NCBI RefSeq assembly: GCF_000263195.1
Contig: NC_018748.1
Location: forward strand, 2,790,001 to 2,854,000
Source: Emticicia oligotrophica DSM 17448
GTDB taxonomy: Bacteria > Bacteroidota > Bacteroidia > Cytophagales > Spirosomataceae
Reading direction: 5' to 3'
Length of the DNA: 64,000 bases
Shown: one piece after another, positions 40,190 through 64,000 of the stretch
How the letters are laid out: each line of letters opens with the position of its first letter
Numbering within the stretch: the stretch's first letter is position 1
Program-made: the position numbers and the translations under genes
The notes under the pieces: model-generated
Databases searched by the model: none
Told to the model about the DNA's origin: nothing
What the model saw: only the letters and a program-made list of their open reading frames with translations

Positions 40190-42748
40190 ATGCCAAAAAG
40201 GATAATCATAAGTTTGATATATCTCATAACATTTACTTTTGCTTCTGTGGCCCAAAGTTCTTCAAAGGTTTTTCAAAAAGCGAATACCCAATTCGAAACT
40301 TTAGGCTATGCGAAAGCAATTGAATTGTATGAAATAGCATTGAGAAAGCCAAAGGGTGCTACTGATGAGGAAATTCTAAAGGCAAAATTAAATTTAGCAT
40401 TAAGTTATAAGTTAGTAAAGGATTATCAAAATGCCGAACGGGTATATCGAGAAACTTTAAGTGCAAATCCAGTACTCAAGGGGGAAGATATTAAAGCCTA
40501 CCGACATTTTGCTCAAGTACTTACCAGTAATAGTAAGTTTTTGGAGGCAAATCAAAACTGGCAAAAGTTTAATGAATTGCAGGAACAAGATAAAAGAGGA
40601 ATCGAATTTATCAAACTCAACAGCAACCGCGAAGCATTAGAACGTAATGTTGGTAGTTATAAAATCGAATACGTAGGTATCAATTCAAGTAGTGCTGATT
40701 TTAGCCCTGTTTATTATAAAAAAGGCTTAGTATTTGTTTCAGGTCGAACCGAAAACTCACAAATACGACGTGTTTTTAATTGGGATGCTTCTTCTTTCCT
40801 TGATTTATTTTATCTCGAAGACCTTAAAGCACTTGGAACAGAATCGGGGGCTTCTGCTATTGGTTCAAGTAGCCAAATGGTTACTCAAAAAAATGCCCAG
40901 CCTTCAAAAAAACTTGGAACCGACTATTACACGCCACCTACAGCCAACGATGCTAAAACTGTGGGTCGTAAGGGAACCGAATATATTACAGGAAGTAAGT
41001 ACCTAGATTACGAAGAAGAGCCTTCAATTCAAACCGAAAAATTTAGCAAGAATCTCAATTCGAAATATCATGAAGGTCCGTGTGCTTTTTTCCATGATGG
41101 AATGAAAATTGTTTTTACCAGAAATACACTAATTGGGAGTGGAGGCGTTTTGGGTCCGAAGAAGAACGGAGCAATCAGTCGGTTGAAGCTTTATACAGCT
41201 GACTATGAAAATAATGATTGGCGTAAGATAAAAGAAATTCCATTCAATAGTAATGATTATTCTTGTGCCCACCCAACCCTCACTATCGATGATAAAACCA
41301 TGTATTTTGTTTCGGATATGCCGGGGGGATATGGTGGTACTGATATTTGGATGACTCGATATGAGAACGACGAATGGTCAAAGCCACAGAATTTAGGGGG
41401 TAGTATCAACACACGAGGAAATGAAATGTTTCCATTTGTTGATGAAAGAGGAAATCTCTATTTTTCATCTGATGGCCACCCAGGTTTGGGCGATTTAGAT
41501 ATTTTCTTTGTTCCGATGAGTACGGCGGCTGGTATGCCAAGTGGAAAGGTTAGAAATTTAGGAGCTCCACTCAATTCGAGTAGAGATGATTTTGGAATTA
41601 TTACTGATAGTGAACGCCGAACAGGATTTATTAGTAGTAATCGAAAACGTGGCGGAATAGATGATGATATCTATAAATTTACCCGCCTTGGCACCCTCTA
41701 TGGTTGTAGGGAAGTGGTTGTAAATATTTTCGATAATGATACCAAAAAGCCATTTGATAAAATAAGGTTTGAATATGAAATTAAAGACAATGTAACTACC
41801 AGAGAAAGTGCTATAACAAATGATATTGGTACGATAAAACTTTGCTTAGAAGCTGATAACGACTTTATTTTTTTAATAAAACAAAATGGTTATCAAGCGG
41901 AAAGTATTAGTTTCTCTAACAAAGATGCCTCAGATTATGAGGTTTCAAAGTTGGATATTTATTTGAAAAAAGAAATAATTATAGAGAGAAGTAAACTAGA
42001 TAAGAAAGTAGAAAAAGTTGATTCTGTGAGTGAAACCTTGGTTTCTCGCAGAAACGATAATATAAGTTCAAGCATTTTTAGAGGTGTCGTTACCGCAGGG
42101 AAAGATAGTACGCCAATTGCTGGTGTTCGTGTAAGATTTATCAATCAATGCACTGGTATTGCTCAAGAAATGACTACAGGTGCCGATGGTTCCTATGAGT
42201 TCAAACGTGAACTTAATTGTGATTATGTTTTAGAGTCTTTCAAAGAAAACTTCGGAAAATCTTCAGAAACGATTCCCAAAATTGAAGAAAAACGTAGTAT
42301 CATAACAAGTATTTTCAAGAAAAAGAAACCAGTAGTACCTGCCACGGGTTCGTTTTTTGATACGAAACTGTATAAAGTTGGCGATATAGTAAAACTGGAT
42401 AATATCTATTATGATTCTGATAGTTATAAGATTCGAAGTGATGCTGCACGTGAATTAGAGAAATTAGTACGAACTATGCAGAGAAATCCGAATATGATTA
42501 TTGAAATTCGTTCACATACCGATACCCGCGGGAATGCTCTTGATAATCTCATGCTTTCACAACGAAGAGTCAATGAGGTAGTCGATTATTTAGCAGATAA
42601 AGGTATTGCTCGTGCACGCATGCGTGGGGTAGGAAAAGGAGAATCCGAACCCGTAAATTCATGTGGTGATGGTGTACAATGTACAGAAGCAGAGCATCAA
42701 AGAAACCGCCGAACTGAGTTTAAAATTATTTCGATTGAAAGAAAGTAG
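40190..42748 (+). CDS. PorE-like OmpA-family protein (TPR, beta-propeller, regulatory domain, OmpA)
   Basis: An 852-residue envelope protein with a signal peptide (1-22). In order: TPR repeats (about 25-150), a WD40-like (PD40) propeller with DDKTMYFVSDMPGGYGGTDIWM and NLYFSSDGHPGLGDLDIF (about 160-500), two small beta regions including a carboxypeptidase-regulatory-like domain (about 625-690), and an OmpA C-terminal peptidoglycan-binding domain (about 735-852; IRSHTDTRG, LSQRRVNEVVDYL, NRRTEFKI). This domain order matches PorE of Porphyromonas gingivalis, a peptidoglycan-linked type IX secretion component. Unlike many relatives, it has no porP/sprF gene beside it. PorE function is inferred from architecture; a general gliding/OmpA protein is the alternative. 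Confidence 0.87.
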   Translation: MPKRIIISLIYLITFTFASVAQSSSKVFQKANTQFETLGYAKAIELYEIALRKPKGATDEEILKAKLNLALSYKLVKDYQNAERVYRETLSANPVLKGEDIKAYRHFAQVLTSNSKFLEANQNWQKFNELQEQDKRGIEFIKLNSNREALERNVGSYKIEYVGINSSSADFSPVYYKKGLVFVSGRTENSQIRRVFNWDASSFLDLFYLEDLKALGTESGASAIGSSSQMVTQKNAQPSKKLGTDYYTPPTANDAKTVGRKGTEYITGSKYLDYEEEPSIQTEKFSKNLNSKYHEGPCAFFHDGMKIVFTRNTLIGSGGVLGPKKNGAISRLKLYTADYENNDWRKIKEIPFNSNDYSCAHPTLTIDDKTMYFVSDMPGGYGGTDIWMTRYENDEWSKPQNLGGSINTRGNEMFPFVDERGNLYFSSDGHPGLGDLDIFFVPMSTAAGMPSGKVRNLGAPLNSSRDDFGIITDSERRTGFISSNRKRGGIDDDIYKFTRLGTLYGCREVVVNIFDNDTKKPFDKIRFEYEIKDNVTTRESAITNDIGTIKLCLEADNDFIFLIKQNGYQAESISFSNKDASDYEVSKLDIYLKKEIIIERSKLDKKVEKVDSVSETLVSRRNDNISSSIFRGVVTAGKDSTPIAGVRVRFINQCTGIAQEMTTGADGSYEFKRELNCDYVLESFKENFGKSSETIPKIEEKRSIITSIFKKKKPVVPATGSFFDTKLYKVGDIVKLDNIYYDSDSYKIRSDAARELEKLVRTMQRNPNMIIEIRSHTDTRGNALDNLMLSQRRVNEVVDYLADKGIARARMRGVGKGESEPVNSCGDGVQCTEAEHQRNRRTEFKIISIERK

Positions 42749-58554: not shown

Positions 58555-59361
58555 CTATATACCCATTACCATCACATCTGATGTAGGAACTGGGCTTCCA
58601 CCTTTTTTCTCTAATGTAACTGCAAATGCTTTTGCTGTTGATATTTTCTTCACTTGTTGAGTGTTATTTTTTATATCAAACACACCCGCATCAACGGGTT
58701 TATCATCAATAATTGCCCACAGTTGATACTGCATTCCTGCGGGAGGAGCTGGTAAATTACCCCTCACTACATAAACTTGGTTAGTTTTTGTATCCCATGC
58801 GAGCATGACAGTTGAATTTTCTGAACCTTTTTGACCGACTAACTTACTCATTTTCACGCTTGGGTCCATCAGTAATTTAACTTCATTGGCTGACATCATT
58901 TCTTCCTGCGATTTGATATCTTTTTGGAGTTTTATATTTTCATTTACAGCTAAATCAAGATTTGATTTTGTACTTTTCCATTGGGTAGCTAAGTAAATAT
59001 TAGCTAAAATACTACCCAATAATGCTACTGAAGCGGCAATTCTTAGGTAAGTTCCGTAAAACCCCGAGATTCTGGTTGCCCGTTGGGCATTGAAATCTAT
59101 TTCTTGGCCACTCTCAAAGTCAATAACTTTACTATTACCCTCCACAATTTTTGACCAAATTTGGTCTTGCAGATGAGCTGGAGGAGTTTGAGCATTGGCA
59201 AAGGCATAGCTTTCTAAGGCTTCTTCGATTGCTCGAATTTCGGCCTTAATTTCGGGGTATTGCATAGCCAATTGCTCGATTTCGGCCACTTCTTCCGTCG
59301 AAGCCAATCCAAGCACGTAGCTTTCTATAATCCCAGAGGCTATGTATTCTTTAATATTCAT
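58555..59361 (-). CDS. RskA-like anti-sigma factor
   Basis: An inner-membrane anti-sigma protein of 268 residues. The cytoplasmic N-terminal part (YVLGLASTEEVAEIEQLAMQYPEI) is the typical sigma-binding four-helix segment without a zinc motif. One membrane helix follows (LRIAASVALLGSILANIYLA, about 107-126), a short coiled coil (about 130-158), and then the periplasmic RskA domain with YVVRGNLPAPPAGMQYQLWAI, ending SDVMVMGI. It lies 61 bp downstream of the ECF sigma gene on the same strand, so it likely holds that sigma factor at the membrane. The activating signal is unknown. Confidence 0.92.
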   Translation of the reverse strand: MNIKEYIASGIIESYVLGLASTEEVAEIEQLAMQYPEIKAEIRAIEEALESYAFANAQTPPAHLQDQIWSKIVEGNSKVIDFESGQEIDFNAQRATRISGFYGTYLRIAASVALLGSILANIYLATQWKSTKSNLDLAVNENIKLQKDIKSQEEMMSANEVKLLMDPSVKMSKLVGQKGSENSTVMLAWDTKTNQVYVVRGNLPAPPAGMQYQLWAIIDDKPVDAGVFDIKNNTQQVKKISTAKAFAVTLEKKGGSPVPTSDVMVMGI

Positions 59362-59422
59362 TTTACTAAACGAGTGAAAACTTCACTCTAAGTTCTCTTT
59401 AGTTTTATTCAATAATTAAAAC

Positions 59423-60004
59423 TCATAAAAATAGGTATGATAAGACAAGCCATAGCACACCCAATAGATTCCTTAGGTTACCGATAGCCGCTTTTATTCT
59501 TGTTTTTACTGTACCAAGTGGAATGCCGAATTCATCTGACACTTCAGCTTGTGTATAACCCTGAAAATAAACTAAATCAATGAGTTGTTTATATTCAGGT
59601 CTTAGGCCATCGACAATTTTTCTAAGGCCAATCGCATCAATTGATAAGTTGGTTTGATATTCACTATCTACTTGGAAAATTACAGAATCTTCCATTGATA
59701 CATTCTGAGATGAATCTCTGTAATCAGCCGAACGAACTTTATCGATGCTTAGATTACGAGCAATATTCATCATCCATGTAAAGATGCTTCCCTTCGAAGA
59801 GTCATAATTATCAATATTTCGCCAAATTTTTAAGAATGTATCTTGTAACAAATCACTGGCGTCATCATCTGATTGGACGATTTTGTTAATCACACCAAAC
59901 AAAGCTCCTGAATAATTATTATACAGGATATTAAAACCCTTCTGGTCTTTATTTCGCAATAAAGTTACCAAATCTTCTTCTGCTATGCTAATTCGACGTG
60001 CCAA
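59423..60004 (-). CDS. ECF-family RNA polymerase sigma factor (SigK-like)
   Basis: A sigma-70-family extracytoplasmic-function factor of 193 residues. Region 2 carries DDASDLLQDTFLKIWRNI and GSIFTWMMNIARNLSIDKVR; region 4 has LIDLVYFQGYTQAEVSDEF and GIPLGTVKTRIKAAIGNLR, a helix-turn-helix. The last residues (LLGVLWLVLSYLFL) form an unusual hydrophobic tail after the usual end of region 4. It precedes the RskA-like gene, forming a sigma/anti-sigma unit whose regulon is not visible here. Confidence 0.94.
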   Translation of the reverse strand: MARRISIAEEDLVTLLRNKDQKGFNILYNNYSGALFGVINKIVQSDDDASDLLQDTFLKIWRNIDNYDSSKGSIFTWMMNIARNLSIDKVRSADYRDSSQNVSMEDSVIFQVDSEYQTNLSIDAIGLRKIVDGLRPEYKQLIDLVYFQGYTQAEVSDEFGIPLGTVKTRIKAAIGNLRNLLGVLWLVLSYLFL

Positions 60005-61931: not shown

Positions 61932-64000
61932 ATGAAATACAATAAATATATATATATAACATTAGTTTTTATACAATTAGCTTGTCAAGTTGCCAAGAAA
62001 CCCCTACCTAAAACTAATCAGGTAGCTTCTACGAAGTCTAAAGAAGATATTTTTACTATTTCTTCTACAACTCCACCTCTTATAAGCACACCTTCAGTAG
62101 CAGAATCTAAGCCAGAACCTGTTGCGTTGACAGTAGGTAATGTAGCGTTAAAAACTGCCGATTTAAAATTTGCTTTCGAAAATCAGATTTCAGAAGATTC
62201 GCTCTCGCCTAAAGCTTTTTTAGAGCAGGTCATCAACGACCAAAGGATTATCGCCGATGCAAAAAAGAGAGGCTACGATACTACCGCATCATTCAAGCAA
62301 GAAATAGAAGATTATCGAAGTACTTTAGCCGAAGCGTATTTAACCGATAGCACAACGATTAAAGCTCTACTAAAAGAAACTTATGAATGGATGAAAGAAG
62401 AGGTTCGCGTAGCTCATATTATGTATCCTATTTCAGAGTTTGCCGAGCCTACAGATACTTTAGCAATTTATAATAAATTAGTTGATATTCGAAATAGAGC
62501 TCTAACAGGAGAAGATTTCGACACTTTAGCTCAACAGTTTTCACAAGATAAAAAAACAAATAGTGTTGGTGGTGATTTGGGTTGGTTTAGAGCGATACGT
62601 TTTCTGTACCCACTTGAGAAAGCAGCATATACTACTCCGGTTGGACAAATATCTATGCCAGTTCGAACAAAGGGAGGGTATCATATTGTGAAAGTTTTAG
62701 GTCGCCGACCTTACAGTGGAAGTGTGTTAGTACAACATATATTAAAAACAGTTCAGCCCAATGCTATTGAGGCAGAAAGCCTTAAAGCAAAAAATACGCT
62801 GGATTCATTAAGAGAAGTGATTGCCAAAGGAGGAATCTCTTTTGAAGATGCTTGTAAAAAATATTCTGATGATACACGCTACCGAAATTTTGGTGGTTTT
62901 TTGCCAGTATTCGGAATTGGTGGTAGAGAAGAAGTATCATTTGAACAAGCGGCATTTGCTTTGCAAGAAGGAGAAGTATCAAAACCAGTACGTACTACAA
63001 TTGGCTGGCATTTGATAAAGCTTTCTAAAAAAATCCCAATGGAGTCTTTTGATGAAGCTCAGGTAAAGTTGAAAGATAAAATTGTGACAGACTCAAGGGG
63101 CGATGTAGTAAAAGAAAATACGCTCATCAAACTAAAAAAACAAATGAAGTTTGATGAAGACCAAGAGGTTGTTAAAAGAGCCATTACGGCCGCTGATACT
63201 AACATTTTGGTGAAAAAATGGGCTTATGCAGTTAATAATGAATTATTGAATAAACCAATATTCAACATTGGCTCAAAAGCATACAAAACTAAATTGTTTT
63301 TTGATTTTGCTGTTGACCATCAAACTTTCGAACGAATACCAACGGGCTATACTCCTACAATGGTTATGCGTAGTTTCTATAAAAAGTTTGTTGAAAATAC
63401 CGTAAAAGAATATGCCGAATCTCATTTAGAGGAATTGAATCCTGATTTTAAGATTTTGATGAATGAGTATTCCACAAGTCTTTTGAAAATGGAATTACTC
63501 AATGATTTAGTATATGAAAAGTCAACATCTGATACAACCGAACAACGCCTCTTTTACGAAAAAAATATTGTACGCTACCAGATGCCTGAACGAGTACAAG
63601 CTACTATTATTGCCTCGAAAGATGCTAAAGTGGTTTATCAGGTAAAAGAATTACTCGAAAAAGGTAAGCCCTATAACCTCAAAAGACTCTATCGTACGCC
63701 ATTATATTTTACAAAATCATCGAGCAATCTAACCCCTGACCACAAGCAGACTTTAGTTTATATCCTAGAAATTATGCGAAAAAATAAAGGATATGTGGTA
63801 GAAATAGGTGGGCATGCAGACCAACACGAAGAAGATAATATTTCGGCTGAACGTATAGAAAAAGCTAAGGCGTTCTTGGTGGCTAATGGCTTATCAATTG
63901 AAAGAATTATCGAAAACGACTACGTAAAAACCAAACCCTCGGGTGATAAATTTGATTGGTCTAAAAACCAAAGAGTTACTTTTGCTTTTTATAGTAATTC
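61932..64000 (+). CDS. Lipoprotein PPIase with two parvulin domains and OmpA-like C-terminus (cut by window end)
   Basis: An open frame of at least 689 codons that runs off the window; the start is complete. Lipobox LAC gives an acylated Cys at residue 18, followed by a Thr/Pro/Ser-rich linker, a SurA-like helical region (about 65-150), and two PpiC parvulin domains: VRVAHIMYP to GGYHIVKVLG (about 158-257) and VQHILK to GWHLIKLSKK (about 266-362), each with the typical GGDLGWF- or FGGFLPVFG-type segment. A 220-residue helical part follows. From about 590 to the end there is an OmpA-like domain: FTKSSSNLTPDH, then VEIGGHADQHEEDN, SAERIEKAKAFLVANGL and NQRVTFAF. It is probably an envelope folding factor that also touches peptidoglycan. 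The fusion is unusual. Confidence 0.85.
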   Translation, partial: MKYNKYIYITLVFIQLACQVAKKPLPKTNQVASTKSKEDIFTISSTTPPLISTPSVAESKPEPVALTVGNVALKTADLKFAFENQISEDSLSPKAFLEQVINDQRIIADAKKRGYDTTASFKQEIEDYRSTLAEAYLTDSTTIKALLKETYEWMKEEVRVAHIMYPISEFAEPTDTLAIYNKLVDIRNRALTGEDFDTLAQQFSQDKKTNSVGGDLGWFRAIRFLYPLEKAAYTTPVGQISMPVRTKGGYHIVKVLGRRPYSGSVLVQHILKTVQPNAIEAESLKAKNTLDSLREVIAKGGISFEDACKKYSDDTRYRNFGGFLPVFGIGGREEVSFEQAAFALQEGEVSKPVRTTIGWHLIKLSKKIPMESFDEAQVKLKDKIVTDSRGDVVKENTLIKLKKQMKFDEDQEVVKRAITAADTNILVKKWAYAVNNELLNKPIFNIGSKAYKTKLFFDFAVDHQTFERIPTGYTPTMVMRSFYKKFVENTVKEYAESHLEELNPDFKILMNEYSTSLLKMELLNDLVYEKSTSDTTEQRLFYEKNIVRYQMPERVQATIIASKDAKVVYQVKELLEKGKPYNLKRLYRTPLYFTKSSSNLTPDHKQTLVYILEIMRKNKGYVVEIGGHADQHEEDNISAERIEKAKAFLVANGLSIERIIENDYVKTKPSGDKFDWSKNQRVTFAFYSN

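Follow-up and report, generated by a model that had tools for sequence, protein, structure and literature searches.

The stretch of Emticicia oligotrophica DNA that was analysed (64,000 nucleotides, hereafter the window) ends within a gene for a putative lipid-anchored periplasmic foldase of the SurA/PpiC kind. The protein is most likely held at the outer membrane and would contact the cell wall through an OmpA-like domain, which is nested inside a third, degenerate parvulin. This reading, which is based on sequence comparison and a structure model, was assigned a probability of about 0.48. The gene starts with ATG at position 61932 and covers 61932..64000 (plus strand) within the window. The first-pass annotation, which was made from the letters of the window, had described this frame as having no stop inside the window, and it is indeed open to the window's end. 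The true end was found 331 bases beyond the window at C5:2854331 (in window numbering, the last base of the stop codon is 64331), and the full protein has 799 residues. The closest named relatives belong to Emticicia and a Cytophagaceae MAG, with 74-81% identity across the protein. Ten other genomes of the same genus were searched and all ten match the foldase over at least residues 7-688; a plasmid search gave no match. Genomes, contigs, loci and families are designated below by G, C, L and f numbers, and all features lie on the plus strand unless noted.

The signal sequence (61932..61985) ends in the candidate lipid-anchor Cys18, a residue kept in close relatives, and a disordered linker follows (residues 24-57, 62001..62102, pLDDT under 50). 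The N-terminal SurA-like module, a beta hairpin plus helices (residues 62-154, 62115..62393), was assigned from the secondary structure of the model and is collinear with the C-terminal module. Parvulin domain 1 (P1; residues 156-260, 62397..62711) retains His162 and His251, and parvulin domain 2 (P2; residues 262-370, 62715..63041) retains His269 and His360; both were delimited by Pfam, the model and alignment, P2 also by a structural match. A second SurA-N-like hairpin with helices (residues 436-548, 63237..63575) was recognized in the model and by hhalign. Next come the strand and helix with which the third parvulin opens (P3; residues 549-577, 63576..63662); they were assigned from the model and from relatives. 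The OmpA-like domain (residues ~578-690, 63663..63998, with the last residue or two past the window) was assigned by Pfam, the model and structural alignment. The second half of P3 (residues ~691-757) lies beyond the window.

Two PpiC domains in a SurA-like layout had been proposed from the sequence alone. Both were matched by Pfam as Rotamase domains in two stretches (PF00639/PF13616; E 2.5e-42, 144.2 bits against a cut-off of 21.7), but the third, degenerate parvulin is present in addition. Among the 57 insert-bearing members of the order (Cytophagales) which were aligned, His162 is kept in 57, His251 in 56, His269 in 55 and His360 in 56; we take these histidines to have the catalytic roles known from Pin1 and parvulins. 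In P3, the place of His162 (residue 558) holds His in 0/57 insert-bearing and 0/38 insert-free rows, and the place of His251 (residue 740) in 2/57 and 4/38, respectively. For the Emticicia protein, an AlphaFold model was computed with 58 aligned sequences (mean pLDDT 90.9, pTM 0.69). It gives the element order E156-166, H173-191, H196-203, E215-219, H226-234, E244-246, E249-260 for P1 and E554-562, H565-576, insert, H691-701, E706-714, H719-723, E729-735, E738-748 for P3 (E, strand; H, helix). With the insert cut out, the C-terminal half aligns collinearly with its N-terminal counterpart (hhalign, 74.8% probability, E 2.6e-5), whereas the profiles of P1 or P2 score weakly against that of P3 (probability 3-8%). 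Because of the element order in the model and the collinear halves, the foldase reads as two SurA-like modules in tandem. The assignment of the third parvulin depends on this element order and on Pfam in insert-free relatives, in which Rotamase_2 bridges the junction, within residues 496-640, in six of the six scanned.

PF00691 matched residues 592-671 with E 1.6e-8 (35.2 bits, cut-off 27.2). The OmpA-like domain had been placed at the C-terminus by the first-pass annotation; its fold stands in the profile search and in the model, but its place is internal, between helix 1 and helix 2 of P3. A C-terminal position was rejected, since residues ~690-799 are the second half of P3 and are continuous in insert-free relatives. 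When aligned to the family profile, these relatives fall into two main pieces (model positions ~38-557 and ~671-773) which adjoin in the protein, e.g. residues 23-550 and 553-656 of L074; some distant members have a longer gap. In pairwise alignments of L043 with L137 and L111, the junction is flanked by helix 1 and helix 2 of the last domain, while those with L011 and L105 are split differently at this point. Residues 587-687 of the model superimpose on Pal (4g4w) with Z 15.9 and an rmsd of 1.6 Å over 101 residues, and residues 573-690 on the OmpA-peptide complex 3td5 with Z 15.1 and 2.8 Å over 107. A profile of 33 inserts retrieved 65 PDB sequences with E-values of at most 0.001 (the lowest being 1.4e-18), led by chains of the OmpA family and Pal. 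A chance OmpA match was rejected because of the modelled fold and this search. The searches with PF00639 and PF00691 and the structure prediction, which the first-pass annotation had suggested as checks, thus gave PpiC and OmpA matches above the cut-off and supported the fold, and the significant match falls in the region (residues ~590-689) on which that annotation had made its proposal depend. Its remark that a typical Arg is missing (NQRV instead of NRRV) carries little weight, as NRRV occurs in several members, some of them from the window's family. At an E-value of 0.01, PF00691 was found in 43 of the 58 insert-bearing proteins scanned. The insert of L102 (f2) lacks the Asp discussed below and is Pfam-negative, yet it is modelled with an OmpA fold (pLDDT 88.2; Foldseek E 4.7e-5; Z 10.9 to Pal 4g4w).

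In A. baumannii OmpA, diaminopimelate is bound by Asp271 and Arg286, according to the available part of PMC5974059. In alignments, their counterparts are Asp630 (63819..63821) and Arg641 (63852..63854). The Arg is invariant in all inserts aligned (59/59, i.e. 57 from the order and two from f36), and a Glu three residues past the Asp position is found in 54 of these 59. Since the 57 order members are best-scoring loci plus picked representatives and 28 of them come from the window's own family, the Asp counts are no fair species sample: Asp is present in 37 and lost in 20, where it is replaced by Ser (6), Glu (4), Gly (3), Lys (3), Thr (2), Val (1) or Pro (1). It is found in every aligned member of f9, f13, f16, f19 and f21 (1 to 3 each), is absent from every aligned member of f2, f4, f7, f10 and f17 (1 to 3 each) and is mixed within f1, f5, f11 and f14. 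Asp and Arg are 11 residues apart here and in 52 of the 57 inserts, compared to 15 in the aligned chains of OmpA and Pal; hence, the binding loop is four residues shorter. Among the OmpA-family domains of the Emticicia genome (18 matched in all), Asp was seen by eye in 15 of the 17 recovered, the insert included. Elsewhere in the window, 42407-42676 (plus strand) encodes another OmpA-family domain (E 9.9e-16), which is part of an 858-residue frame.

For inserts that have both the Asp and the Arg, contact with the wall through this domain is likely. In the Asp-less lineages it has probably been weakened or replaced while the fold was kept. For the window's protein, the evidence that suggests wall binding is the Asp630/Arg641 pair, and the short loop and the loss of Asp in relatives weaken it; where the Asp is lost, wall binding is doubtful. 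The same observations bear on a different explanation, in which the nested domain gives the foldase structural support or a docking site for proteins such as SurA, BamA or a client, and wall binding is no longer its main job. The loss of Asp in 20 inserts beside a fixed Arg and a nearly constant Glu, the OmpA fold modelled for the Asp-less insert of L102 and the shortened loop in 52/57 all agree with docking, while the pair is intact in the window's protein, in 23 of the 28 aligned members of its family and in every aligned member of the five Asp-retaining families named above. Docking is a tenable explanation, although the odds are against it.

Cys18 follows a hydrophobic stretch and is preceded by Q-L-A. 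Under the canonical lipobox rule, Q at position -3 is non-canonical. By our heuristic, 52 of the 57 insert-bearing order members have a lipoprotein-type Cys and five have none. Counted from the first Cys past residue 12, the spacer up to the first strand measures 12-47 residues in 53 order members listed. None of 53 insert-bearing lipoproteins (52 from the order, one from f36) has two or more acidic residues among the six that follow the Cys. Since such residues are the surface-export mark of Bacteroidota lipoproteins, as described in the accessible part of PMC12578637, the anchor more likely faces the periplasm, which is plausible from the sequences. Using the same heuristic, 14 of 15 insert-free class-level members aligned lack a lipoprotein Cys, and 12 of 13 insert-free members of the same phylum have one. 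The association of insert and anchor on the tree was not significant (5 independent pairs, median p 0.5). Joint gain of the two was considered unsupported, given that most insert-free outgroup members (the 12 of 13 from the phylum) also have a lipoprotein Cys and that the tree pairs are few.

A SurA-like gene of 448 codons (L006:6418-7764) starts 85 bases past the foldase gene and is followed by an ATPase gene at L006:7859-8830, which we take to be of the MoxR type. Inside and outside the order, a surA-like gene was found downstream in 34 of 46 flanked loci and moxR after it in 29. In the remaining stretches covered, 12/46 loci have neither surA nor moxR, so that the linkage to surA is not universal; this makes the main reading slightly less likely and a docking module slightly more so. 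Eleven of the 12 belong to the order (L102, L103, L104, L106, L107, L112, L113, L114, L118, L119 and L120, from f2, f4, f9, f17, f19 and f21). Between the family gene and surA, a gene for a SurA-N-type lipoprotein-like protein of 285 to 320 residues was noted by eye at L137:4610-5467 and L111:6552-7514. Upstream of the foldase gene in the window, the genes at 58555-60004 on the minus strand were named by eye as one for an ECF-type sigma factor followed by one for an anti-sigma-like membrane protein.

In B. thetaiotaomicron, SurA (Bt3848) co-purifies with BamA, according to the part of PMC12578637 that was available. Taken together with the kept parvulin histidines and the linkage to surA, this makes a role in the folding of outer-membrane proteins the most economical reading of the sequences and the model. 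P1, P2 and the helical modules would keep hold of outer-membrane proteins in their unfolded state and act as isomerases on proline bonds, a task shared with the neighbouring SurA homologue. The OmpA-like domain would bind diaminopimelate-type peptidoglycan through Asp630 and Arg641, and with this tether the foldase would work in a fixed layer from the outer membrane to the wall.

The nearest known proteins are the insert-free SurA/PpiC-like foldases of other Bacteroidota (538-761 aa, 38 aligned). They belong to the same family, have flanking pieces collinear with the present protein and are often followed by surA and then moxR, as here; they differ in lacking the OmpA-like domain and, as stated for the class-level members, mostly the lipoprotein Cys. 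E. coli SurA, which is not known to be lipidated, shares the helical N-terminal module and two parvulins (1m5y against residues 156-377, E 4.3e-17). However, it has neither the second module nor an OmpA-like domain, and a separate SurA homologue adjoins the foldase gene here. The SurA equivalog NF008038 scored 80.8 bits against a cut-off of 394 with the 689 aa encoded in the window. The fold and the Asp/Arg pair of the insert are common to the C-terminal domains of Pal and OmpA, from which it differs in being nested in another domain and in its shorter loop. Pal is lipid-anchored, and the Pal equivalog TIGR02802 gave 26.1 bits with a cut-off of 125.35. A Bacteroidota protein with an OmpA-type domain matches the insert structurally at Z 15.1; we assume that it is a lipoprotein and that its architecture differs from that of the foldase. 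BamM, BamJ and BamK are isomerase-type lipoproteins in outer-membrane assembly of Bacteroidota and are described as surface lipoproteins in the available parts of PMC12611786 and PMC12578637, whereas the insert-bearing foldases lack the acidic export signal (0/53). As far as their accessible parts go, these 2025 papers on Bacteroidota BAM structures concern Flavobacterium and Bacteroides.

Gram-positive PrsA is a lipid-anchored parvulin foldase with one parvulin domain and no OmpA domain. An inner-membrane-anchored or soluble periplasmic foldase resembling PrsA or PpiD, whose OmpA-like domain would be a neutral insertion fixed in the lineage, could account for the fact that the best NCBIfam whole-protein matches of the 689 aa within the window are PrsA models. 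Their scores are far below the cut-off, however (NF002827, 105.9 against 343 bits; NF002846, 103.2 against 361 bits), which sets PrsA apart from the Emticicia foldase. We consider this explanation unlikely; the distribution of the insert bears on it as well.

At family level, all 200 genomes searched match the foldase; among the matches listed, the one in G092, whose frame has 569 residues, ends at residue 578, and all others extend to residue 664 or further. The order was covered by 137 genomes, of which 122 have a member among the matches listed. In 107 of these 122 the match runs through the insert, in 14 it ends at the insertion point, and one further member is a contig fragment. This answers the question of the first-pass annotation how widespread the fusion is in Cytophagales: the insert is present across most sampled families of the order. 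The 14 members ending at the insertion point comprise 11/11 sampled members of f18, one of f3, one of f15 and G319 of f11; the latter (L133) carries a diverged insert of similar size. No member was among the matches listed for 15/137 genomes, nine of which are from f20. These nine are all the f20 genomes sampled, with sizes of 0.7-1.8 Mb.

The phylum was represented by 138 genomes, including five of the order. Among the matches listed from outside the order, members end at model positions 412-568, except G377, which reaches 638. Of the out-of-order proteins read, only those of f36, L122 (= G377) and L123 (= G337), contain an OmpA-like domain (E 3.1e-7, over the cut-off, and 0.0076, under it, respectively). 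All 15 class-level relatives aligned from outside the order are without it. A scan of 30 out-of-order loci, some of which are also in set A2, gave no match of a family protein to the insert profile; L169 gave a weak OmpA-profile match away from the insertion site. The profile for the last two out-of-order scans included the window's own insert.

From 115 non-redundant sequences, 97 were taken into A2, and the careful tree was built without 30 of these. Trees were built on the foldase without the insert, and for the clade test L105 and L111 were put in as presumed losses. A single clade of the insert-bearing order members with L105 and L111 was not rejected (AU p 0.298), and the order's sampled members are compatible with one gain of the insert. 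The clade was rejected when the f36 host (L122) was added (AU p 9.5e-66); a shared origin of the f36 and order inserts was rejected on this value, which tests the host protein and not the insert itself. In f36 (L122:2144-4492, L123:1195-3330), the OmpA-like domain is located after helix 2, ~15 residues further on; this point was taken from pairwise alignments that are not unanimous, as some are broken up or place it at another site. The members L105:7578-9569 (f3) and L111:7607-9577 (f15) are insert-free among insert-bearing rows on the tree. By parsimony at least 5 changes are required, with weakly supported places of L111 and L114.

In our reading, an OmpA-like domain was grafted into the same dead P3 on two independent occasions and was later lost in f3 and f15. 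The insert-free members of f3 and f15 (the place of the latter being weakly supported) suggest that the foldase can do without the insert, as a neutral insertion in a PrsA-like protein would allow. In contrast, its presence in 107 of the 122 order members listed and the second entry into the same dead parvulin in f36 argue for use. Tentatively, and at somewhat less than even odds, an OmpA-type domain was grafted at least twice into the same dead P3, and either the foldase was pinned between wall and outer membrane or the pocket was repurposed, with Arg fixed and Asp drifting.

An assembly error or frameshift joining a foldase gene to an OmpA-family gene, the pitfall named in the first-pass annotation, found no supporting point and is practically negligible, because a single open frame spans both domains in the ten further genomes searched from the genus and in most order genomes sampled; a chimera was rejected on the same grounds.

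The individual pieces of the protein are known. The nesting, its spread through the order and the second origin appear to be unreported: a nested foldase-OmpA fusion was not found in the literature searched by titles and abstract openings, in which subscription journals and preprints are thinly covered. Periplasmic chaperones of outer-membrane proteins are usually viewed as freely diffusing. The family offers a clean comparison between relatives with and without the insert and between inserts with and without the binding Asp. If wall contact through the nested domain is true, some Bacteroidota would fold their outer-membrane proteins at a fixed place.
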